Shown piece by piece: positions 22,918 through 60,429 of a DNA stretch of 64,000 bases. The stretch is from NCBI GenBank assembly GCA_017438975.1, contig JAFRUH010000026.1, positions 1 through 64,000 of the forward strand, given 5' to 3'. This stretch comes from Bacteroidales bacterium. GTDB lineage: Bacteria; Bacteroidota; Bacteroidia; Bacteroidales; UBA932. Under the pieces are notes generated by a model. That model worked only from the letters and a program-made list of their open reading frames with translations, did no database searches and was not told the origin of the DNA. How positions within the stretch are numbered: the first letter of the stretch is position 1; each line of letters opens with the position of its first letter. The translations under genes and the position numbers were made by a program.

Positions 22918-23027
22918 GAAGACATTCCCCTTGTCCTGAAACCGCCTTCGGCCCCTCCCACTGCGTGGGCCCCTCCCTCTTATAGTGCCGAGGGTGGCAT
23001 AGGTTTCAGGGCAAGGGGAATGTCTTC
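22918..23027 (+). repeat. Palindromic repeat element, copy A (intergenic)
   Basis: Two 26-nt arms (22918-22943 and 23002-23027) are inverted complements with one mismatch, which is a G-U pair in RNA. The arm ends next to the core as CTGAAACC and GGTTTCAG. The 58-nt core can fold as GCC-ttc-GGC, CCCAC-tgc-GTGGG and CCCTC-10 nt-GAGGG. It shares GGGCCCCTCCCTCTTA and TGCCGAGGGTGGCAT with copy B. It sits between two convergent genes (HAD phosphatase and upp) and may end transcription from both sides. Read on the minus strand it holds an open frame giving A-T-L-G-T-I-R-G-R-G-P. Confidence 0.85.
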
Positions 23028-32387: not shown

Positions 32388-32503
32388 TTCCGTAGCGGGG
32401 GTCTCTCCTGAAACCGTCGCTTCGCGACCCCCTCCCTGAAGGGCCCCTCCCTCTTACAGTGCCGAGGGTGGCATGGGTTTCAGGGGAGACCTCCGCTACG
32501 GAA
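32388..32503 (+). repeat. Palindromic repeat element, copy B (between ftcD and hutU)
   Basis: Arms of 28 nt (32388-32415 and 32476-32503) pair with two mismatches, both of which are G-U pairs in the plus-strand RNA. The core folds as GTCGC-ttc-GCGAC (32416-32428), CCC-tgaa-GGG (32434-32443) and CCCTC-10 nt-GAGGG (32449-32468). The inner 18 nt of the arm, GGGGTCTCTCCTGAAACC, are identical to copy E; the outer part differs. It starts 6 nt after the ftcD stop and ends 16 nt before hutU, so it is probably transcribed within the hut operon. Confidence 0.88.
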
Positions 32504-32519
32504 AAACAATGATTAACCA

Positions 32520-34538
32520 ATGACTTTTCAAGAAGAACTGCTTGCGGGAATTCCGGCGGAACTGCCGGAGGTGAAACCGTATGATCCCGCCGTCAGCCAC
32601 GCCCCTAAACGGAAAGACATCCTCTCCGAAGAAGAGAAGGTGCTCGCCTTGAAAAATGCCCTCCGGTACTTTCCGGAGCGGCATCATGCCGTCCTCGCCC
32701 CGGAATTCGCCGAAGAACTCCGCTGCTACGGACGCATCTACATGTACCGCTTCCGCCCTTCGTACGAGATGTACGCCCGGCCGGTCGGGGAATATCCCGC
32801 CCGGTCCCGCCAGGCGGCCGCGATCATGGCCATGATCCAGAACAACCTCGACCCGAGGGTCGCCCAGCATCCTCATGAACTGATCATCTACGGCGGAAAC
32901 GGAGCCATCTTCCAGAACTGGGCCCAGTACCGCCTCACCATGCAGTACCTCGCGACGATGACCGACGAGCAGACCCTCGTCATGTACTCCGGGCACCCGC
33001 TGGGCCTCTTCCCGTCTCGGAAAGACGCCCCGAGGGTCATCGTCACCAACGGCATGGTCATCCCGAACTATTCCAAGCCGGATGACTGGGAGCGGTTCAA
33101 CGCCCTCGGCGTCTCCCAGTACGGGCAGATGACCGCCGGTTCCTATATGTACATAGGCCCCCAGGGCATCGTCCACGGAACGACCATCACGGTCATGAAC
33201 GCCGCCCGGAAACAGCTCAGGGCCAAGGGGCTCAGCGGTGACGACCGGGGCGGCCTGCTCTTCGTGACGGCGGGACTCGGCGGCATGTCCGGCGCCCAGC
33301 CGAAGGCCGGGAACATCGCGGGAGTCGTCAGCGTGACGGCTGAAATCAACCCGCTGGCCGCCGAAAAACGGTATCGCCAGGGCTGGGTCGACGAACTCCA
33401 CCGGGACCTCGACGCCCTGGTGGACCGCATCCGGAAAGCCGTCTCCGCCAAGGAGGTCGTCTCCCTCGCCTATGTCGGGAATGTCGTGGACCTCTGGGAG
33501 CGGCTCGCCGACGAAGGAATCCACGTCGACCTCGGATCCGACCAGACCTCCCTCCACAACCCCTGGGCGGGCGGCTACTATCCGGTCGGGTATTCCTTCG
33601 AGGAATCCGGAAGGATGATGGCCGAAGAGCCGGAACGCTTCCGGGAGGCCGTCCGGGCGTCGCTCCGCCGCCATGTCGCGGCCGTCAACCGGCTCGCCGC
33701 GAAGGGAATGTACTTCTTCGACTACGGCAACGCTTTCCTGCTGGAGAGTTCCCGCGCCGGGGCGGACATCCTCCTCCCCGACGGACGGTTCCGCTATCCC
33801 TCCTATGTCCAGGACATCATGGGACCGCTCTATTTCGACTACGGATTCGGGCCCTTCCGCTGGGTCTGCATGAGCGAAGACCCCGCCGACCTCGCCAGGA
33901 CCGACGCCCTCGCCATGCAGGTGCTCTCGGACATCGCCCGTACCGCCCCGGAAGAGATCGCCGGTCAGATGCGGGACAACATCCACTGGATCGAAGAGGC
34001 CGGGCGCAATCACCTTGTCGTGGGCTCGCAGGCCCGGATCCTCTACGCCGACTGCGAAGGAAGGACGAAGATCGCCTTGGCATTCAACGACGCGATCCGC
34101 CGCGGGGAAATCACGGCCCCGATCGTTCTCGGACGCGACCACCATGACGTTTCCGGTACGGATTCCCCTTTCCGGGAGACCTCCAACATCTACGACGGTT
34201 CCCGTTTCACCGCGGACATGGCGGTCCAGAACGTCATCGGCGACGCCTTCCGGGGCGCCACCTGGGTCTCGATCCACAACGGTGGCGGCGTCGGCTGGGG
34301 CGAAGTTATCAACGGCGGCTTCGGAATGGTCATCGACGGCTCCGAAGACTCCGCCCGCCACATCCGGGACATGCTCTTCTGGGATGTGAACAATGGCATC
34401 GCCCGCCGCTCCTGGGCCCGGAACGAGGGGGCACGGATGGCCATAGAACGGGAAATGGCCCGCACCCCCGGCCTGAAAGTGACCCTCCCCAACTTCGCCG
34501 ATGAATCTTTGATCCGTAAAACTATTGAAAAAGCATGA
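32520..34538 (+). CDS. hutU: Urocanate hydratase
   Basis: A 672-residue NAD-dependent urocanase (urocanate to imidazolonepropionate). Family signatures are clear: Y-G-G-N-G-A-I-F-Q-N-W-A-Q-Y, the NAD-binding area G-G-M-S-G-A-Q-P-K-A, D-L-G-S-D-Q-T-S-L-H-N-P-W and H-N-G-G-G-V-G-W-G. It is longer than the roughly 550-residue proteobacterial enzyme, as expected for the larger Bacteroidota/Firmicutes form. Its stop overlaps the hutH start by 4 nt. Confidence 0.96.
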   Translation: MTFQEELLAGIPAELPEVKPYDPAVSHAPKRKDILSEEEKVLALKNALRYFPERHHAVLAPEFAEELRCYGRIYMYRFRPSYEMYARPVGEYPARSRQAAAIMAMIQNNLDPRVAQHPHELIIYGGNGAIFQNWAQYRLTMQYLATMTDEQTLVMYSGHPLGLFPSRKDAPRVIVTNGMVIPNYSKPDDWERFNALGVSQYGQMTAGSYMYIGPQGIVHGTTITVMNAARKQLRAKGLSGDDRGGLLFVTAGLGGMSGAQPKAGNIAGVVSVTAEINPLAAEKRYRQGWVDELHRDLDALVDRIRKAVSAKEVVSLAYVGNVVDLWERLADEGIHVDLGSDQTSLHNPWAGGYYPVGYSFEESGRMMAEEPERFREAVRASLRRHVAAVNRLAAKGMYFFDYGNAFLLESSRAGADILLPDGRFRYPSYVQDIMGPLYFDYGFGPFRWVCMSEDPADLARTDALAMQVLSDIARTAPEEIAGQMRDNIHWIEEAGRNHLVVGSQARILYADCEGRTKIALAFNDAIRRGEITAPIVLGRDHHDVSGTDSPFRETSNIYDGSRFTADMAVQNVIGDAFRGATWVSIHNGGGVGWGEVINGGFGMVIDGSEDSARHIRDMLFWDVNNGIARRSWARNEGARMAIEREMARTPGLKVTLPNFADESLIRKTIEKA

Positions 34539-36022
34539 CACATCATATTTCCAAAACCCGCCTTTCACTTGAAAAACTCAAGGCAATCATAGACAGCCAC
34601 GAAAAGATCGCCCTCTCCGAAGAGGCGGTCCACGATGTAATCAAATGCCGGAAGTACCTGGACAGCAAGATGGAAGACATCGGGCGCCCCGTATACGGCA
34701 TCACCACGGGATTCGGGTCCTTGTACAACGTGACCATCCCCAAGGACGAGCTTTCCCAGCTCCAGTACAACCTCGTCGTGTCGCACGCCTGCGGAGCCGG
34801 GGAGACCGTCCGTCCCGAGATCGTCAAGATCATGCTGTTCCTCAAGGCCCAGAGTCTTTCCTACGGTCATTCCGGGGCCCAGCTGATCACCGTCCAGCGG
34901 CTGATCGACATGTTCAACGAGGATATCCTTCCGGTTGTCTACCAGCAGGGTTCCCTCGGTGCCTCGGGCGACCTGGCCCCGCTGGCCCACCTGAGCCTCC
35001 CGCTCATCGGGCTCGGCGAAGTCCTGTACCGGGGCCGGATCCGTCCGTCCGCCGAAGTCTGGGCGGAAAAGGGTTGGGAGCCGATCCAGCTCCAGTCCAA
35101 GGAAGGGCTTGCCCTTCTGAACGGCACCCAGTTCATGAGCGCCCACGCCGTCTGGTCCATCCTCAAGAGCATGCGGCTTTCCCGCTGGGCCGACCGGATC
35201 GGAGCCATGTCCCTGGACGCGTACGACGGCCGGATCGAACCGTTCCTGCCGCTGACCCATCAGCTCCGTCCCCATGTCGGCCAGATCGAGACCGGAAGGG
35301 TGTTCCTCGAGACCCTGGAGGGAAGCGAACTGATCAACCGGCCGAAGGAGCACGTGCAGGATCCCTACAGTTTCCGGTGCATCCCGCAGGTCCATGGCGC
35401 CGTGAAGGACAACATCATGTATGTCAAGTCGGTTATAGAGAATGAGATCAACTCGGCGACGGACAACCCGAACATCTTCCCGGACGAGGACATGGTCATT
35501 TCAGCCGGCAACTTCCACGGCGAGCCGATCGCGATTCCGATGGACGCCCTTGCGATCGCCATGTCCGAACTGGCCAGCATTTCCGAGCGGCGGACCTATC
35601 AGCTGATCCACGGGCTCCGCGGCCTCCCGAAGTACCTCGTAGCCAATCCGGGGCTGAACAGCGGGTTCATGATTCCGCAGTATACGGCGGCTTCGATCGT
35701 GAGCCAGAACAAGGGGCTCTGCTGGGCGGCTTCCTGCGATTCGATCCCTTCGTCGCAAGGTCAGGAGGACCATGTCAGCATGGGGTCGAACGCGGCGACG
35801 AAGCTGGTGCGGGTCGTGGACAACGTGGAGACGGTTCTCGGTATCGAACTCTTCAACGCGGCCCAGGCGCTGGAATTCCGCCGGCCGGCGAAGTCTTCCC
35901 CGATCCTCGAGCGGATTTTCGAAGATTTCCGGAAGGTCGTCCCCTTCATCGACAACGACACCTATATGCATCCCCTGATCGAGAAATCCGTCCGGTTCCT
36001 CCGTCAGGAGCAGTATTTATAG
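34535..36022 (+). CDS. hutH: Histidine ammonia-lyase
   Basis: A 495-residue lyase converting histidine to urocanate. The self-forming MIO cofactor triad A143-S144-G145 lies in G-S-L-G-A-S-G-D-L-A-P-L-A-H; G-I-T-T-G-F-G and Q-G-Q-E-D-H-V-S-M-G are also present. Length is standard. The overlap with hutU implies coupled translation; repeat copy C begins 2 nt after the stop. Confidence 0.97.
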   Translation: MTHHISKTRLSLEKLKAIIDSHEKIALSEEAVHDVIKCRKYLDSKMEDIGRPVYGITTGFGSLYNVTIPKDELSQLQYNLVVSHACGAGETVRPEIVKIMLFLKAQSLSYGHSGAQLITVQRLIDMFNEDILPVVYQQGSLGASGDLAPLAHLSLPLIGLGEVLYRGRIRPSAEVWAEKGWEPIQLQSKEGLALLNGTQFMSAHAVWSILKSMRLSRWADRIGAMSLDAYDGRIEPFLPLTHQLRPHVGQIETGRVFLETLEGSELINRPKEHVQDPYSFRCIPQVHGAVKDNIMYVKSVIENEINSATDNPNIFPDEDMVISAGNFHGEPIAIPMDALAIAMSELASISERRTYQLIHGLRGLPKYLVANPGLNSGFMIPQYTAASIVSQNKGLCWAASCDSIPSSQGQEDHVSMGSNAATKLVRVVDNVETVLGIELFNAAQALEFRRPAKSSPILERIFEDFRKVVPFIDNDTYMHPLIEKSVRFLRQEQYL

Positions 36023-36024
36023 CT

Positions 36025-36161
36025 TTTTCGGGGGACAGGGGTTATTCACCCGAAACCCATGGCCACCCTCGGCCATGTATGAGGGAGGGGCCCGGCCGGC
36101 AGGCCGGGAGGGGTCGGAGCGAAGCGGAGACGGTTTCGGGGAATACCCCTGCCCCCGAAAA
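36025..36161 (-). repeat. Palindromic repeat element, copy C (between hutH and hutI)
   Basis: Arms at 36025-36057 and 36132-36161 pair over 30 nt with three single-base bulges in the left arm. The core shares CATGGCCACCCTCGGCCATG and GAGGGAGGGGCCCGG with copy D, and is the reverse orientation of copies A and B. The core can form a CCCGGCC/GGCCGGG hairpin and either CCCTC/GAGGG or CATGGCC/GGCCATG. Unlike A, B and D, the frame reading A-T-L-G-x-V is broken here by TGA. Confidence 0.86.
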
Positions 36162-41271: not shown

Positions 41272-42336
41272 ATGTCGGAATACCATGTCCCTGTGATGCT
41301 CGATGAAAGCGTTACGGCGCTGATTACAAATCCCCAAGGTACATACGCAGACTGCACTTTCGGAGGCGGTGGGCACACCGCTGAGATACTTTCACGCTTA
41401 CAAGATGGCGGACGCGTCATCGCCTTCGATCGTGACAGTGATGCACTGGCCAATGCTCCGGACGATCCCCGCCTGACGCTGGTCCATAACAACTTCCGCT
41501 TTATCGAGAACTACGCCGAACTGCTCCGCCGGGAAGAACCGGGGAAGAGGGTATTCCCCTCAGAACCCATGGCCACCCTCGGCCATGTAAGAGGGAGGGG
41601 CCCGGCTTGCCGGGAGGGGTCGGAGCGAAGCGAAGACGGTTCGGAGGAGAATACCCTCTTCCCCGGTGCCCCCGAGGTATTTGACGGGATCCTGGCGGAC
41701 CTGGGAGTTTCCTCGCACCAGTTCGACACCGCCGAACGCGGATTTTCCTTCCGGTACGACGCCCCGCTCGACATGCGGATGGGCCTTGAATCGGAGACTA
41801 CCGCCGCCGACATCGTCAACACCCGCTCCCAGGAAGACCTCGAACGCATCCTGCGGCTCTACGGAGAAGTGGACGGGGCCCGCAATATCGCCCGGCTCAT
41901 CGTCGCCGCCCGTGCGGTAGAGCCGATCCGGACGACCGGGAACCTCGACAGGGCGATTGAAAAGGCGCTCCCGAAAACGGCCGCCCACAAGCAGCTCGCC
42001 AAGATCTACCAGGCCCTCCGCATCGAGGTCAACCAGGAGATGCGCGCCCTCGAGAAATTCCTCGACGGAGCCGCCCGAAGCCTCAAGGAAGGCGGACGCC
42101 TCGTCGTCATCACCTATCATAGCCTCGAGGACCGGATGGTCAAGAATTTCATCCGCACCGGCAATGTGGAAGGCAAGGAGGAGAAAGACATGTACGGAAG
42201 GGTCCATGCGCCCCTCGCCGCCGTCCTGAGGAAGCCCCTCACCCCGGGCGAGGAAGAAATCGCCGGAAATACCCGGGCGCGGAGCGCGAAACTGAGGGTG
42301 GCCGAAAAACCGATGGAAAGGGGGACCGGAGCATGA
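41272..42336 (+). CDS. rsmH: 16S rRNA m4C1402 methyltransferase, with a repeat-derived insertion
   Basis: A 354-residue RsmH/MraW. SAM-binding and family motifs are intact: Y-H-V-P-V-M-L-D-E-S, T-F-G-G-G-G-H-T, L-A-D-L-G-V-S-S-H-Q-F-D, R-G-F-S-F-R-Y-D, R-I-E-V-N-Q-E-M and V-I-T-Y-H-S-L-E-D-R-M-V-K. Residues about 89-132 are foreign to the family and are encoded by palindromic repeat copy D; compared with the remembered Bacteroides protein there are about 47 extra residues between N-N-F-R-F and D-G-I-L-A-D-L-G. The insertion keeps the frame and falls in a loop between two core strands, so the enzyme is probably active. Overlaps ftsL by 4 nt. Confidence 0.95.
   Translation: MSEYHVPVMLDESVTALITNPQGTYADCTFGGGGHTAEILSRLQDGGRVIAFDRDSDALANAPDDPRLTLVHNNFRFIENYAELLRREEPGKRVFPSEPMATLGHVRGRGPACREGSERSEDGSEENTLFPGAPEVFDGILADLGVSSHQFDTAERGFSFRYDAPLDMRMGLESETTAADIVNTRSQEDLERILRLYGEVDGARNIARLIVAARAVEPIRTTGNLDRAIEKALPKTAAHKQLAKIYQALRIEVNQEMRALEKFLDGAARSLKEGGRLVVITYHSLEDRMVKNFIRTGNVEGKEEKDMYGRVHAPLAAVLRKPLTPGEEEIAGNTRARSAKLRVAEKPMERGTGA
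41538..41667 (-). repeat. Palindromic repeat element, copy D (inside rsmH)
   Basis: Two 30-nt arms (41538-41567 and 41638-41667) pair with two mismatches. The core matches copy C in CATGGCCACCCTCGGCCATG, GAGGGAGGGGCCCGG and GGGAGGGGTCGGAGCGAAGC. Where copy C has TGA in the corresponding frame, this copy has AGA and stays open. The coding strand reads E-P-M-A-T-L-G-H-V-R-G-R-G-P through the element. Confidence 0.9.
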
Positions 42337-42680: not shown

Positions 42681-44810
42681 ATGGCAAGGCAGCAGAAAAG
42701 AATCAAGGACAAAGCGCTACTGGGCAAGGACAGGGTGGGATTCATCCTGGACACCACGTATGCGCTCGTCATCCTGCTGTCCGCGCTGATCTTCTTCAAG
42801 ATCATCTACATCCAATTGACCTACAAAGTCGACCCGCGCGTAGAATCCCTCTTCCGCCCGACCGCGACCAAACAGATCGAACGCCCGAAACGCGGAGCGA
42901 TCCTCGCCTCGGACGGAAAGATCCTCGCCATCTCGACCCCGGTCTACCAGATCTATATGGACTGCGCCGTCCAGTATGACATCTACAGGCAGGACGGGGA
43001 AAAGGGCGGCCTGAAGGAACAGCAGTGGAGAGAGGACGCAAAGGAACTCTCCAAGGGTCTCGCGTCCATCTTCCAGGACAAGACGGCCGACCAGTACTAT
43101 CAGTTCATCCTGTCCAAACGCGAAGCCGGACGGCATTATGAGAAGATCGGAAAGCCCGTCGACCATGCCACCCTCCAGCGCATCAAGGCCCTCCCCCTCT
43201 TCAACAGGGGTCCGAACACCGGCGGCCTGATCTATGAGACCCGCGACAGCCGGCAGTATCCCTACGGCACGATCGCCCGGAGGACCATCGGTTATGTCAA
43301 GGACAATTCCAACTCCAACGGGAACAACCTGATCGGCATCGAGGGACGGTTCAACTTCGAACTCCACGGAAAGGAAGGCCACGCCTGGCTGCGCAAGGCC
43401 GAGATGAACAAGCGGATCCACAACTTCGACAGCACCGCCGTCAGGGCCGTCGACGGAAACGATGTCCGGACCACCCTGAACATCGACCTCCAGGACATCG
43501 CGGACCGCGCCCTGAGGAAGAACATCCAGGAAGAGGAACGGATCAGCGGAGCCTGCGCCATCCTTATGGAAGTAGAAACCGGAGCGATCCGGGCGATGGT
43601 CAACCTCCAGCGGGACACGACCGTGGAGGGCCACCCTCTCTCCGAACGGATGAACCTGGCTATCAGCCAGATCGGTGAACCCGGCTCGGTCTTCAAGACC
43701 GTGACCCTGACCAGCGTCGTCGAAGACGGCTTCGTCCATTCAGTCGACGAGACCGTCCCGACCTTCCGGGGCAATCTCCCCGGATATCCCCGCGTCCGGA
43801 CCGACCCCCACATCGTGGACTGGGAAGACAGCACCCACCGGAAAGAGATTCCGATCAAGCGCGGTCTGGAGATTTCCTCCAACTATGTCTTCGCCTATCT
43901 CGCGACCAAGTGCTACGAATCCCGCCCGAAGGACTTCTACGACAAGATCTACCGGTATAAGCTCGGAGAGAAATTCGATTTCGACATCGACGGTCTCGGG
44001 ACCCCGCAGGTCGTCACGCCGGACAACAACCCCTTCTGGGAGAAGACCTCCCTCGCCACGGCCGGCTACGGCTATTCCATCGCCGTCACGCCGCTCCACC
44101 TGATTACCTTCTACAACGCCATCGCCAATGACGGGAAGATGATGAGACCTTACCTGGTCGAAGATGTCGAGAAAGACGGGAAGGTCATCCGGAAATACGG
44201 TCCCGGCATCCTCGGGAACATCTGCTCGAAAGCGACCGCCGATACCGTCACGCGGGCCCTCAAGGGGGTTCCGCAGTACGGAACCGCGAAAAAGCTCAGG
44301 AGAGCAAGGCTGCAGGTCGCCGGCAAGACCGGGACCGCCCAGGTCGCCCTCCGGGCCGATGAAAAGCCCCGGGCCGGGGATCAGTACCATGACGAGTGGG
44401 GGCGGAAGAAGAACCAGGGAACCTTCGTCGGATTCTTCCCCGCCGACAATCCGAAATATTCCATCCTCGTCACGGTCTACTCGCGCCTCTCGCTGGGCAG
44501 TTTCTACGGCGGCGACGCGCCCGCCTCGACCGTACGGGAGATCGTGGACGCGATCTATTCGATGGACTCCTCCTGCGGGACGTCGATCTCCCGAAGCGGA
44601 GAACTGCCCGTGATGGAGGTCCGGGAAGCGGAAATCGCCGAAGGGAAGGTCCCGGATGTCAAGGGATTCGGACTGATCGATGCGATCTACGCCATCGAGA
44701 ACGGCGGATACCGCTGCGCCTATGAAGGGAGCGGACATGTCGTCTCCCAGTCCCCCGCAGGCGGAACGGCTTTGAAAACAGGGGAAACCATAACATTGAA
44801 ACTGAAATGA
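42681..44810 (+). CDS. ftsI: Septal peptidoglycan transpeptidase (PBP3) with PASTA domain
   Basis: A 709-residue class B penicillin-binding protein. There is one N-terminal membrane helix (about 18-40), a pedestal domain with R-P-K-R-G-A-I-L-A-S-D-G-K, and the transpeptidase with catalytic Ser336 in S-V-F-K, the S-S-N motif in I-S-S-N-Y-V-F and K549-T-G-T. The final 60 residues form one PASTA domain (K-V-P-D-V-K-G-F-G-L-I-D-A-I). It crosslinks septal peptidoglycan together with FtsW. Confidence 0.95.
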   Translation: MARQQKRIKDKALLGKDRVGFILDTTYALVILLSALIFFKIIYIQLTYKVDPRVESLFRPTATKQIERPKRGAILASDGKILAISTPVYQIYMDCAVQYDIYRQDGEKGGLKEQQWREDAKELSKGLASIFQDKTADQYYQFILSKREAGRHYEKIGKPVDHATLQRIKALPLFNRGPNTGGLIYETRDSRQYPYGTIARRTIGYVKDNSNSNGNNLIGIEGRFNFELHGKEGHAWLRKAEMNKRIHNFDSTAVRAVDGNDVRTTLNIDLQDIADRALRKNIQEEERISGACAILMEVETGAIRAMVNLQRDTTVEGHPLSERMNLAISQIGEPGSVFKTVTLTSVVEDGFVHSVDETVPTFRGNLPGYPRVRTDPHIVDWEDSTHRKEIPIKRGLEISSNYVFAYLATKCYESRPKDFYDKIYRYKLGEKFDFDIDGLGTPQVVTPDNNPFWEKTSLATAGYGYSIAVTPLHLITFYNAIANDGKMMRPYLVEDVEKDGKVIRKYGPGILGNICSKATADTVTRALKGVPQYGTAKKLRRARLQVAGKTGTAQVALRADEKPRAGDQYHDEWGRKKNQGTFVGFFPADNPKYSILVTVYSRLSLGSFYGGDAPASTVREIVDAIYSMDSSCGTSISRSGELPVMEVREAEIAEGKVPDVKGFGLIDAIYAIENGGYRCAYEGSGHVVSQSPAGGTALKTGETITLKLK

Positions 44811-46282
44811 AACTGAGTGAGATCATAGAGAACGCGGGCGTCGTCAGGGTCGTCGGGACCCCGGACCGGGAGATCGTGTCCATCACGGCCGATTCCAGGA
44901 AGGTCGTCCCCGGGAGCCTTTTCATCGCGGTGAAGGGATTCGCCAGCGACGGACACGCCTATATCGCCTCCGCCCTCGAAAAGGGCGCCGCAGCCATCCT
45001 GTTCGACAATCCGGAAGCCCTCTCCGGAGAGAGGGTTGCGGAGACGGCCGAACCTGCGACGTGGGTCCAGGTCGGGAATTCCCGGCACGCCCTCGGCATC
45101 GCCGCGGACAACTTCTTCGGCCACCCCTCCTCCAAGCTCACCCTCGTCGGCATCACCGGCACCAACGGCAAGACGACGACCGTCACCCTCCTCTACCACC
45201 TGTTCATGGGCCTCGGATACAACTGCGGCCTCCTCTCCACCATCGCCAACTATGTCGGCGAAAAACGGACGGAGACGGAGAACACGACCGCCGATCCGAT
45301 CACCATGGGCGCCCTGATGGCCGAAATGGTCGAGGCCGGCTGCGAATACTGTTTCATGGAGGTCAGTTCCATCGGCGTCGAGCAGGAGCGGATCGCCGGA
45401 CTCCGCTTCCGCGCCGGCATCTTCTCCAACCTCACCCACGACCACCTGGACTACCACAAGACCTTCGCGGAATACCTGCGCTGCAAGAAACTCTTCTTCG
45501 ACAACCTCCCCGCAGACGCCTTCGCCATCACCAACACAGACGACAAGAACGGCTCCGTGATGGTCCAGAACACCCGCGCCAACGTCGTGACCTATTCCTG
45601 CCGGAACCTCGCCGACCACACCGCCCGCATCCTCGAGGAAAGCTTCGAGGGGATGCTCCTCCGCATCGACGGACAGGAGGCATGGACCCGTCTCATCGGC
45701 CGCCACAACGCGTACAACATCCTCGCAATCTATACGACCGCCGTCTGCCTCGGCGCCGATCCGACCGAAACCCTCGTCGCCATCAGCCGCCTGGCCTCGG
45801 CGCCCGGACGCCTCGAGACGCTCCGGGGGCCCCGCGACCTCTCCGTCGTCATCGACTATGCCCATACGCCCGACGCCCTGGAGAACGTCCTCGGAACCCT
45901 CCGGGAAATCGCCCCCGAAAAGCAGCTCGTCTGCCTCTTCGGCTGCGGCGGGGACCGGGACAGGACCAAACGCCCCGAAATGGCCGCGATCGCCGAAAAG
46001 ATGGCGGACCGCCTCGTCATCACCTCGGACAATTGCCGGACCGAGGACCCCGTGGCCATCATCGAAGAGATCAAGACCGGCCTGACCGTCAAGGGGCTGG
46101 CGAAATCCGTCTGCATCACGGACCGGCGGGAAGCCATCCGGACGGCCATCCTTACCGCCGCCGACGGCGCCACGATCCTCCTGGCGGGGAAAGGGCACGA
46201 GACCTACCAGGTCATCGGCCACGAGAAACTGCACTTCGACGAAAAAGAAATCGTTACTGAAACCTTCAACCTGATCCGATAG
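44807..46282 (+). CDS. murE: UDP-MurNAc-tripeptide synthetase
   Basis: A 491-residue Mur ligase that adds the third amino acid to the peptidoglycan stem. It has T-A-D-S-R at the N-terminus, the ATP loop G-I-T-G-T-N-G-K-T-T-T, and E-V-S-S-I-G-V-E-Q. The motif that reads meso-diaminopimelate (D-N-P-R in enterobacteria) is D408-N-C-R411 here, with Cys for Pro, so mDAP is still the likely substrate because the Asp, Asn and Arg are kept, but this is less certain than usual. Overlaps ftsI by 4 nt. Confidence 0.95.
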   Translation: MKLSEIIENAGVVRVVGTPDREIVSITADSRKVVPGSLFIAVKGFASDGHAYIASALEKGAAAILFDNPEALSGERVAETAEPATWVQVGNSRHALGIAADNFFGHPSSKLTLVGITGTNGKTTTVTLLYHLFMGLGYNCGLLSTIANYVGEKRTETENTTADPITMGALMAEMVEAGCEYCFMEVSSIGVEQERIAGLRFRAGIFSNLTHDHLDYHKTFAEYLRCKKLFFDNLPADAFAITNTDDKNGSVMVQNTRANVVTYSCRNLADHTARILEESFEGMLLRIDGQEAWTRLIGRHNAYNILAIYTTAVCLGADPTETLVAISRLASAPGRLETLRGPRDLSVVIDYAHTPDALENVLGTLREIAPEKQLVCLFGCGGDRDRTKRPEMAAIAEKMADRLVITSDNCRTEDPVAIIEEIKTGLTVKGLAKSVCITDRREAIRTAILTAADGATILLAGKGHETYQVIGHEKLHFDEKEIVTETFNLIR

Positions 46283-59421: not shown

Positions 59422-60429
59422 TTATTCGGAAAGGAGGAAGAGGACTTCCTCAAGGGAAAGGGTATTGTCGATGGAATAGGTTCCGCTGCGGGTGCGGACG
59501 AGGGAGTCGAGATGGGCACCGCTTCCGAGGGCCTCCCCGAGGTCGCGGGCGAAGGCGCGGATATAGGTGCCTTTGCTGCAGGCGATGCGGATCCGGGCGA
59601 GCGGAAGGCCTTGAAGGTCAGCTGTATCCGCCACATGTATCCGCGAGGACGCAGTACCGGTATCCCCTACTTTCGGAGAGGGGGTCTCTCCTGAAACCCA
59701 AGTCCCTCCCGGAATCTCGGGCCCGTCGTCCGATAGTGAACTATCGTCCATCGTTTCCTCCGATTCCGGGCCCCTCCCGTTCATGAGGCCACGGGCGGCC
59801 ACAGGTTTCAGGAGAGACCCCCTCTCCGAAACGGGGCCACCGGGCGTCGCCGCGCACGCAGAAAAGGAAAGCAGTTCCAGGGCGGAGATTTCGATCTTCG
59901 CGCACCGGAGCGTCTCCAGGGCGGCCGCATCGAAATCCTCCCCTGCCGACTCCCCTCTCTGCACCTTGCGGTACATCCTCCGGGCCATCTCATACGCCCG
60001 AACCCCGTCGACCGACTTCGCGCTGAAAAGCGGAGCGACCTGCTCCTGGACCCCGAGAAAGGACGGCAGGACAGCCTCGACTGCCTCCCGCGTTACATGT
60101 TCATAGGGGAAACGGCGGTCGACCTCTTTCTCGAGGTCATAGGAAGGCGTCGTCGCACCGAACCGGATTCCGGCGACGTATTCCTTGTCATGGGACTGAA
60201 GTTCCTCGGCCCGCTTGGTCGCATTCCCGATGCAGACGAGCAGAATTCCCGTCGCGAGCGGGTCCAGCGTCCCGGCGTGGCCGACTTTCAGGTTTTTTTT
60301 GCCGAAGTGACGGATGGCGGCGTACTTGACCTTCCGGATTACATCGGCGGAGGTCCACCGGTACGGCTTGTCCACGGGCAGGACAATCCCGTCCGGATAG
60401 TCGTCGATGGACCTGGAGAATTTATCCAT
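59422..60429 (-). CDS. truB: tRNA pseudouridine-55 synthase, with a repeat-derived insertion
   Basis: A 335-residue TruB. Catalytic Asp lies in V-G-H-A-G-T-L-D-P-L-A-T-G; Y-V-A-G-I-R-F-G and R-I-A-C-S-K-G-T-Y-I-R-A-F-A-R-D-L-G are intact. Between A-L-E-L-L and that last block there are about 90 residues where the remembered Bacteroides protein has about 8. Residues roughly 200-253 of this stretch are palindromic repeat copy E, in frame and without stops. The insertion is at a loop between two strands of the catalytic fold, so activity is likely kept. Overlaps rpiB by 8 nt. Confidence 0.93.
   Translation of the reverse strand: MDKFSRSIDDYPDGIVLPVDKPYRWTSADVIRKVKYAAIRHFGKKNLKVGHAGTLDPLATGILLVCIGNATKRAEELQSHDKEYVAGIRFGATTPSYDLEKEVDRRFPYEHVTREAVEAVLPSFLGVQEQVAPLFSAKSVDGVRAYEMARRMYRKVQRGESAGEDFDAAALETLRCAKIEISALELLSFSACAATPGGPVSERGSLLKPVAARGLMNGRGPESEETMDDSSLSDDGPEIPGGTWVSGETPSPKVGDTGTASSRIHVADTADLQGLPLARIRIACSKGTYIRAFARDLGEALGSGAHLDSLVRTRSGTYSIDNTLSLEEVLFLLSE
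59671..59831 (+). repeat. Palindromic repeat element, copy E (inside truB)
   Basis: Two perfectly complementary 28-nt arms (59671-59698 and 59804-59831), with weaker pairing extending to about 59657 and 59843. The 105-nt core is longer than in other copies and carries CGATAGT/ACTATCG and CCCGGAATC/GATTCCGGG stems and a CCCGT/ACGGG hairpin. It is in the orientation of copies A and B on the plus strand, hence reversed relative to truB. The coding strand reads K-P-V-A-A-R-G-L-M-N-G-R-G-P, in the same phase as the peptide of copy D. Confidence 0.92.

Follow-up and report, generated by a model that had tools for sequence, protein, structure and literature searches.

A palindrome in frame within a Bacteroidales truB gene belongs to a family of miniature elements with paired arm changes and cores often inverted between species

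A long perfect palindrome is read through by truB

How did a long, perfect palindrome come to lie in the reading frame of an RNA-modifying enzyme, and what keeps its two arms alike? The question is raised by truB in the window, by which we mean the whole 64-kb stretch (64,000 nucleotides) of Bacteroidales contig JAFRUH010000026.1 analysed here. The gene is a minus-strand open reading frame at 59422–60429 that scores above the cut-off of NCBIfam TIGR00431 (TruB) and, by this match, encodes the 335-aa tRNA pseudouridine(55) synthase. Within it lies the palindrome, copy E (59671–59831 on the plus strand, 161 nt), which consists of a left arm of 28 nt (59671–59698), a core or spacer of 105 nt (59699–59803) and a right arm of 28 nt (59804–59831), the arms being 100% complementary. 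The core-plus strand is the plus strand of the window and is thus antisense to truB. With a spacer of up to 150 nt allowed, no perfect inverted repeat in the window is longer, and the longest found in 30 first-order Markov sequences reached 15 nt. The palindrome, with the perfect 28-nt arms described in the initial annotation of this DNA, is therefore far above chance expectation, and on the minus strand the region 59656–59843 folds far more strongly than its shuffles (z −9.2).

Copy E is in frame and codes for approximately residues 200–253. An AlphaFold2 model of TruB, built from 22 sequences, has a mean pLDDT of 75.5 with 223 of the 335 residues at 70 or above, and places residues 196–257, all with pLDDT below 50, between the strands 175–190 and 277–284. 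The product of copy E is thus predicted to be a disordered insert between two strands, in agreement with the 54–63 extra residues proposed initially. The core is also enlarged, as claimed at that time: 105 nt compared with 58–74 nt in 28 of the 30 other copies of the window's own genome (G000, 2.8 Mb), a size range that also covers 100 of the 136 copies in a multi-genome set.

We compared 30 truB loci, including that of the window, and the compared region is in one frame in all of them. Palindromes with arms of at least 22 nt are present in eight (L143, L144, L156, L162, L163, L166, L169, and L170) and an imperfect palindrome in L172, while the remaining 21 have no arm above 14 nt. On this ground we rejected the possibility, raised in the initial annotation against its own reading, that the insert is an ancient conserved TruB domain. 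As a separate observation, truB of L162, L172, and L148 carries other in-frame repeat-like peptides (SVIPSEVEGS-type and SFAVAQDD-type, named by eye), and inserts in general seem to land in TruB loops.

The palindrome is one copy of a dispersed, family-restricted element

The core motif CCCCTCCCTCWTAYANNGCCGAGGGTGGC has 31 matches in G000 at up to three mismatches and none for the reversed pattern; 30 of the 31 sites were taken on as loci. Copy E itself is too diverged for this pattern search and is absent from the 31 matches, its motif lying in the 3′ part of the core (approximately 59770–59799) with three mismatches to a probe for the family motif. A covariance model finds 32 copies in G000, copy E among them, and 32 in a sister species (G095) that is 87% identical near truB. 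G095 is very likely RUG13467, since its copies have the same arms as those on RUG13467 contigs. The motif occurs in 58 of the 101 genomes sampled from the genus, which may be Cryptobacteroides; a stricter pattern picks out 39 of 299 genomes in the bacterial family, from 4 of 25 genera, and in an order-wide draw of 295 genomes the window's own genome is the sole match. Among the genomes sampled, the element is therefore restricted to one Bacteroidales family. Of at least 109 contigs with matches, the 80 listed all have titles naming Bacteroidales or Bacteroidia, many with a ruminant source, and the contigs come from several sequencing projects.

In a search of the window against Rfam, tRNA alone reached the gathering score, and four loci searched at E-values up to 1 returned two miRNA models far under gathering, so a known RNA family was rejected as the identity of the element. 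A phage- or plasmid-borne origin was set aside as well, copy B (below), searched on its own, matching neither a phage nor a plasmid collection. We found no account of this palindrome family in a literature search whose coverage lay mostly outside subscription journals.

The window holds four further copies. Copy A (22918–23027, plus strand) lies between convergent genes, and copy B (32388–32503, plus strand) between co-directional genes, with 16 nt left between its end and the next ORF start at 32520. Copy D (36024–36161, minus strand) has bulged arms and is directly past a stop codon (36020–36022). Copy C (41538–41667, core on the minus strand) is in frame inside rsmH (41272–42336, plus strand), which encodes the 354-aa 16S rRNA m4C1402 methyltransferase, so the second in-frame copy in a translation-related gene that had been reported from the sequence is real. 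By contrast, a link to translation genes, also proposed, falls away: in-gene copies occur in murE of G095, in a hisD–hisC-like read-through ORF and in a methyltransferase-like ORF (names given by eye for the last two), and an ORF heuristic places 24–26 of the 30 G000 copies between genes. What holds of that proposal is that copy E belongs to a dispersed family (32 copies) whose presence varies by species; the in-gene copies examined are in frame.

Two of the in-gene cases have features of their own. The murE copy of G095 (L179:1-3029) is in frame in the N-terminal region; murE of the window (44807–46282, plus strand) has no element and a 13-residue loop instead, the DNA of which contains CCGAACC, perhaps the scar of one arm. 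At L032 and L180 the element is, in both species, the linker of one continuous ORF resembling HisD followed by HisC, a possible gene fusion via the element.

By the same heuristic, the genes around the 30 G000 copies are convergent in 12 cases, co-directional in 12 and divergent in none, with four copies inside genes and two unclear. Across 154 copies the counts are 43 convergent, 6 divergent, 55 co-directional, 14 at edges, and 36 'genic', a class that the heuristic over-calls in a GC-rich genome; for copies inside genes we therefore rely on the named genes alone. With co-directional transcripts as the reference, the core points one way in 30 copies and the other way in 25, a balanced count. 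Either 3′ gene ends are favoured or promoters are avoided, and orientation has no preference.

Anatomy of the element

From the outside in, the element begins with largely locus-specific arms of approximately 25–35 nt, which end in a conserved inner end (CTGAAACC/GGTTTCAG). The core follows in the order hairpin P1, CCCCTCCC, hairpin P2, CCCCTCCCTC, TTAYA, and hairpin S2, whose loop GAGGG is complementary to an upstream CCCTC (S1). From its sequence, the core could fold into two hairpins and a pseudoknot. Core size is 58–74 nt in most copies and reaches 116 nt. In 38 aligned copies, 68 cells of P1, P2, and S2 are changed on both sides, compared with 20.8 in shuffles and at most 15 in slid pairings, and the outermost pair of S2 is broken in 20 of the 38. 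S1 is invariant in this alignment because the search pattern fixed it. When S1 was partly freed, at least the pair variants CAT/ATG, CGC/GCG, and CGT/ACG were seen, along with two broken ones; in the genus sample, the matches listed include at least CCCAC/GTGGG and CCCCC/GGGGG, and genome G089 shows a broken CCATC/GAGGG twice. Copy E is of the CCCGT:ACGGG subtype, and a second subfamily with CCCCC:GGGGG occurs in truB of L162, L163, and L170. Element copies fold strongly.

Some cores (L007, L011, L074, L142, L177, and L182) hold in the P2 loop an extra module of approximately 40 nt, a ACCCCAAGAATCAGAGATTCTCGGGG-like hairpin; it is confined to one species at L014/L182 and L016/L177. At L136, two element copies lie side by side, approximately 90 nt from start to start.

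Arms are mostly locus-specific and change in pairs

Core and arms differ sharply in how they are shared among loci. For 129 of the 143 copies whose arms reach at least 22 nt, a non-syntenic copy lies within 1 mismatch of 33 positions at the core end, whereas in the outer arm 38 have such a neighbour, at a limit of 4 mismatches in 17; of the arms, the inner 6–8 nt are conserved. Most arms are nevertheless inherited, because outer-arm identity at 20 syntenic G000/G095 loci averages 0.72 compared with 0.54 under shuffled pairing (maximum 0.61 in 500 shuffles). At four of these loci (L008, L017, L029, and L030) the arms are no closer to the partner than to unrelated copies, the partner's outer arm ranking 8th–22nd of 29. 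The cores of 13 of the 20 loci are closest to their own syntenic partner, and at three loci the cores are dissimilar or resized (identity 0.57–0.73).

Alike cores in locus-specific arms could mean that the core alone is mobile and enters the loops of pre-existing hairpins, the arms belonging to the site. We consider this improbable. It would fit L012, where G095 has a coreless scar with 17-nt arms. However, L022 has a clean empty site in G095 that lacks arms; looking at this one site for a target-site duplication, as in a MITE, we saw AATTAT on both sides of the insert, not abutting it. In addition, related arms accompany the 14 copies (10 syntenic groups) of one lineage, which would follow from arms that come in together with the core and diverge afterwards. 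An exact coreless TGAAACC..GGTTTCA hairpin was found nowhere in G000 or G095, a weak point in that the exact pattern misses even the L012 scar.

Where the arms differ between the two species, they tend to differ in pairs. Over 21 G000/G095 pairs, decayed pairs included, 304 arm columns are unchanged, 114 are changed with a mirroring change in the opposite arm and 99 are unmirrored. L024/L174 (8 mirrored to 0 unmirrored), L025/L189 (4 to 0), and L027/L176 (17 to 0) are fully mirrored, and 74 of the 99 unmirrored columns fall in eight pairs with bulged or decayed arms, in an ungapped comparison. Leaving out these eight (L008, L013, L015, L018, L023, L028, L032, and L033), a post hoc choice, changes the counts to 89 mirrored and 25 unmirrored; when L017, L029, and L030, with arms that bear no recognisable relation, are dropped too, 53 and 20 remain. 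Mirrored columns would equally arise if one copy replaced the other. In truB, the arms of the two species have two differences, both mirrored in the opposite arm. The perfect arms of copy E had been taken as the mark of a young or actively maintained copy; that reading does not survive, as G095 has the copy too, with arms that differ by mirrored changes alone. Perfect arms do not date an insertion.

Paired change is also what selection for an RNA hairpin, as a terminator or 3′-end stabiliser, would produce through ordinary compensatory mutation, with inverted loci (below) being independent insertions at hot spots. The position of many copies close behind stop codons, the rarity of divergent placement (0 of 30 in G000; 6 against 43 convergent among the 154), the strong folding and the four syntenic loci with unrelated arms all speak for such selection. 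We still regard it as unlikely, for wobble-type arm mismatches show no transcript-strand bias (30 versus 33), which fits correction at the DNA level rather than RNA selection. Coding copies, too, have perfect arms, and inverted syntenic loci share arms and private core variants. In the frame of the core, non-Watson–Crick arm pairs are more often A:C than G:T (63 versus 39, p 0.02), a hint of strand-specific constraint.

The core is inverted at about half of the loci shared by two species

The truB element of G095 is 92% identical to that of G000 over 161 nt, in plus/minus alignment, and the covariance model places the two copies on opposite strands. A G095 partner colinear on both sides exists for 20 of the 30 G000 loci; the core is inverted at nine and not at 11. 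L013/L181, colinear on one side only, is counted in the 21 arm pairs above and lies outside this set of 20. For nine loci no partner turned up among the G095 copies retrieved; two of these loci (L012 and L022) were examined further. Counting truB as well, 10 of the 21 shared loci have a core turned round relative to its flanks. Further species pairs gave 70 locus pairs in 26 groups, after one pair (the two neighbouring copies of L136) was dropped; three of the 70 set G000, G095 or RUG13467 against a third species. The core is inverted in 31 of these pairs and in 12 of the 26 groups, and orientation is consistent in every group. Two pairs from other species have both flanks at 90% identity or more, and neither is inverted.

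Every genome is a draft (those with names carry MAG or uncultured in their titles), and the inversions are seen between assemblies rather than in reads. An assembly artefact, in which the arms collapse in the graph and the orientation of the core is set arbitrarily, would yield inversion at about half of the loci, as is found. We nonetheless judge this artefact, a refuting case named in the initial annotation, very improbable. Reversing the truB spacer in silico creates one stop codon in G000 and two in G095, compared with none in the real orientations, so in both genomes the assembled orientation alone is open, which argues against an artefact. The other six of the eight palindromic truB alleles tested stay open whichever way the spacer runs. 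Moreover, the arms are approximately 30 nt, the family is found in several sequencing projects, and the orientations do not conflict within any of the 11 groups that have at least three members. As the spacers of the two truB genes are inverted, their TruB loops are unrelated in sequence though the DNA is homologous.

The extent of the inverted segment can be read from arm mismatches that are asymmetric and shared between partners. In inverted pairs, four of four such positions (three loci) move with the core and none with the flank; in non-inverted pairs, five of six agree with the core. At L054/L107 and L103/L277, three such mismatches lie 11–15 nt from the inner end of the arm, so the switch lay farther out, in the variable arm. 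These data bear on whether a site-specific invertase acts at the conserved inner ends and flips the core, as in the invertons of Bacteroidales. Conserved inner 6–8 nt and core inversion at many loci are what an invertase would give, and invertons are described as common in gut bacteria (PMC11892184). Against it, the inverted segment at these two loci reaches at least 14–15 nt into the arm, past the conserved inner end, and an invertase leaves the mirrored arm changes unexplained. We think it a doubtful explanation. The alternatives considered here overlap, and their probabilities need not sum to one.

A proposed mechanism and its place among known systems

With a probability of roughly two in three, we consider the truB insert to be one copy, resident at this site, of a miniature palindromic element restricted to the bacterial family, in which template switching homogenises the arms and flips the core. 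For truB itself, an element similar to RPEs (Rickettsia palindromic elements) or REPINs, tolerated in a loop that is modelled as disordered, is the best explanation. By this proposal, the element would insert as a unit, arms included, and spread at a low rate, possibly aided by RAYT-like HUH transposases. After insertion, template or strand switching between the arms during replication would copy one arm onto the other, giving close pairing and mirrored mutations, and a switch spanning the spacer would leave the core inverted. Selection may hold the core in place, because old copies shared between species have near-identical cores. Coding copies would survive where the insertion and any flip keep the frame open in a floppy loop, so that one flip would rewrite approximately 35 TruB residues at once. 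By analogy with yeast, where such events have been described, both the likeness of the arms and the flips of the core are probably due to template switching between the arms; strand switching independent of RecA, or homologous recombination from arm to arm, would leave the same pattern.

In truB, a block of an RNA-modifying enzyme has been replaced by its own reverse complement with the gene still open. Each species pair offers around twenty orthologous palindromes that can be scored for arm correction as well as for spacer inversion, and such a series would make the rate and rules of bacterial template switching directly measurable.

The family is a real one of miniature palindromes, RPE-like by in-frame insertion and REPIN-like by layout, and is set apart from both by variable, co-evolving arms and an often inverted core. 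RPEs are described as palindromic repeats of approximately 150 bp, many of them in frame in unrelated protein genes (PMC10969869). The element shares with them the in-frame position in protein genes (truB, rsmH, and others). In contrast to RPEs, it occurs in another phylum, its arms are largely locus-specific and co-diverge, its core inverts, and most copies are intergenic. The likeness rests on layout and insertion habit rather than sequence homology, the genomes sampled being within Bacteroidales.

In yeast, template switching at inverted repeats in coding genes is reported to homogenise the arms and invert the spacer, with inversions that changed 2–5 bp and up to two residues (PMC8604942). 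Mirrored arm changes and spacer inversion are both seen here, but the spacers are approximately 58–105 nt, about half of the G000/G095 loci are inverted, and approximately 35 TruB residues are rewritten. Long perfect inverted repeats are also reported in coding DNA of nematomorph mitochondria, where the arms code for conserved protein (PMC6649704); the arms of copy E code for an insert modelled as disordered, and they are part of a dispersed family whose core is conserved. In Bacteroidales invertons, too, DNA between inverted repeats switches orientation, whereas here no conserved recombinase site extends past 6–8 nt, the arms are mostly unique to the locus and the orientations are compared between species. 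That the element represents a class of invertons free of a recombinase, with paired arm rewriting, core flipping by template switching and both orientations within populations, is a bolder idea to which we give a low chance. In that case each flip in truB or other genes would swap approximately 13–36 residues, and the element would be a built-in source of alternative protein loops.

REPINs are described as two inverted units around a spacer, with an extragenic bias and a single-stranded DNA hairpin (PMC3116915). The element resembles them in its paired inverted units around a spacer, its extragenic bias and a correlation with RAYT-like genes, a label that stands here for a Y1_Tnp match and gene length. 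It differs in that REP arms are over-represented and conserved; here the arms are the variable part, their inner 6–8 nt alone being conserved. Unlike the arrangement in REPIN/RAYT systems, the four RAYT-like genes inspected have no adjoining element, as their loci (4.5 kb each) contain no core match and no inverted repeat above 18 nt. These loci (L207–L210) carry single-domain transposase genes with open frames of approximately 300–360 codons. The link to RAYT-like genes is a correlation only: with kinship ignored, the family is carried by 55 of the 78 genomes with Y1_Tnp compared with 3 of the 23 without, and among genomes at least 90% complete by 33 of 39 compared with 0 of 9.
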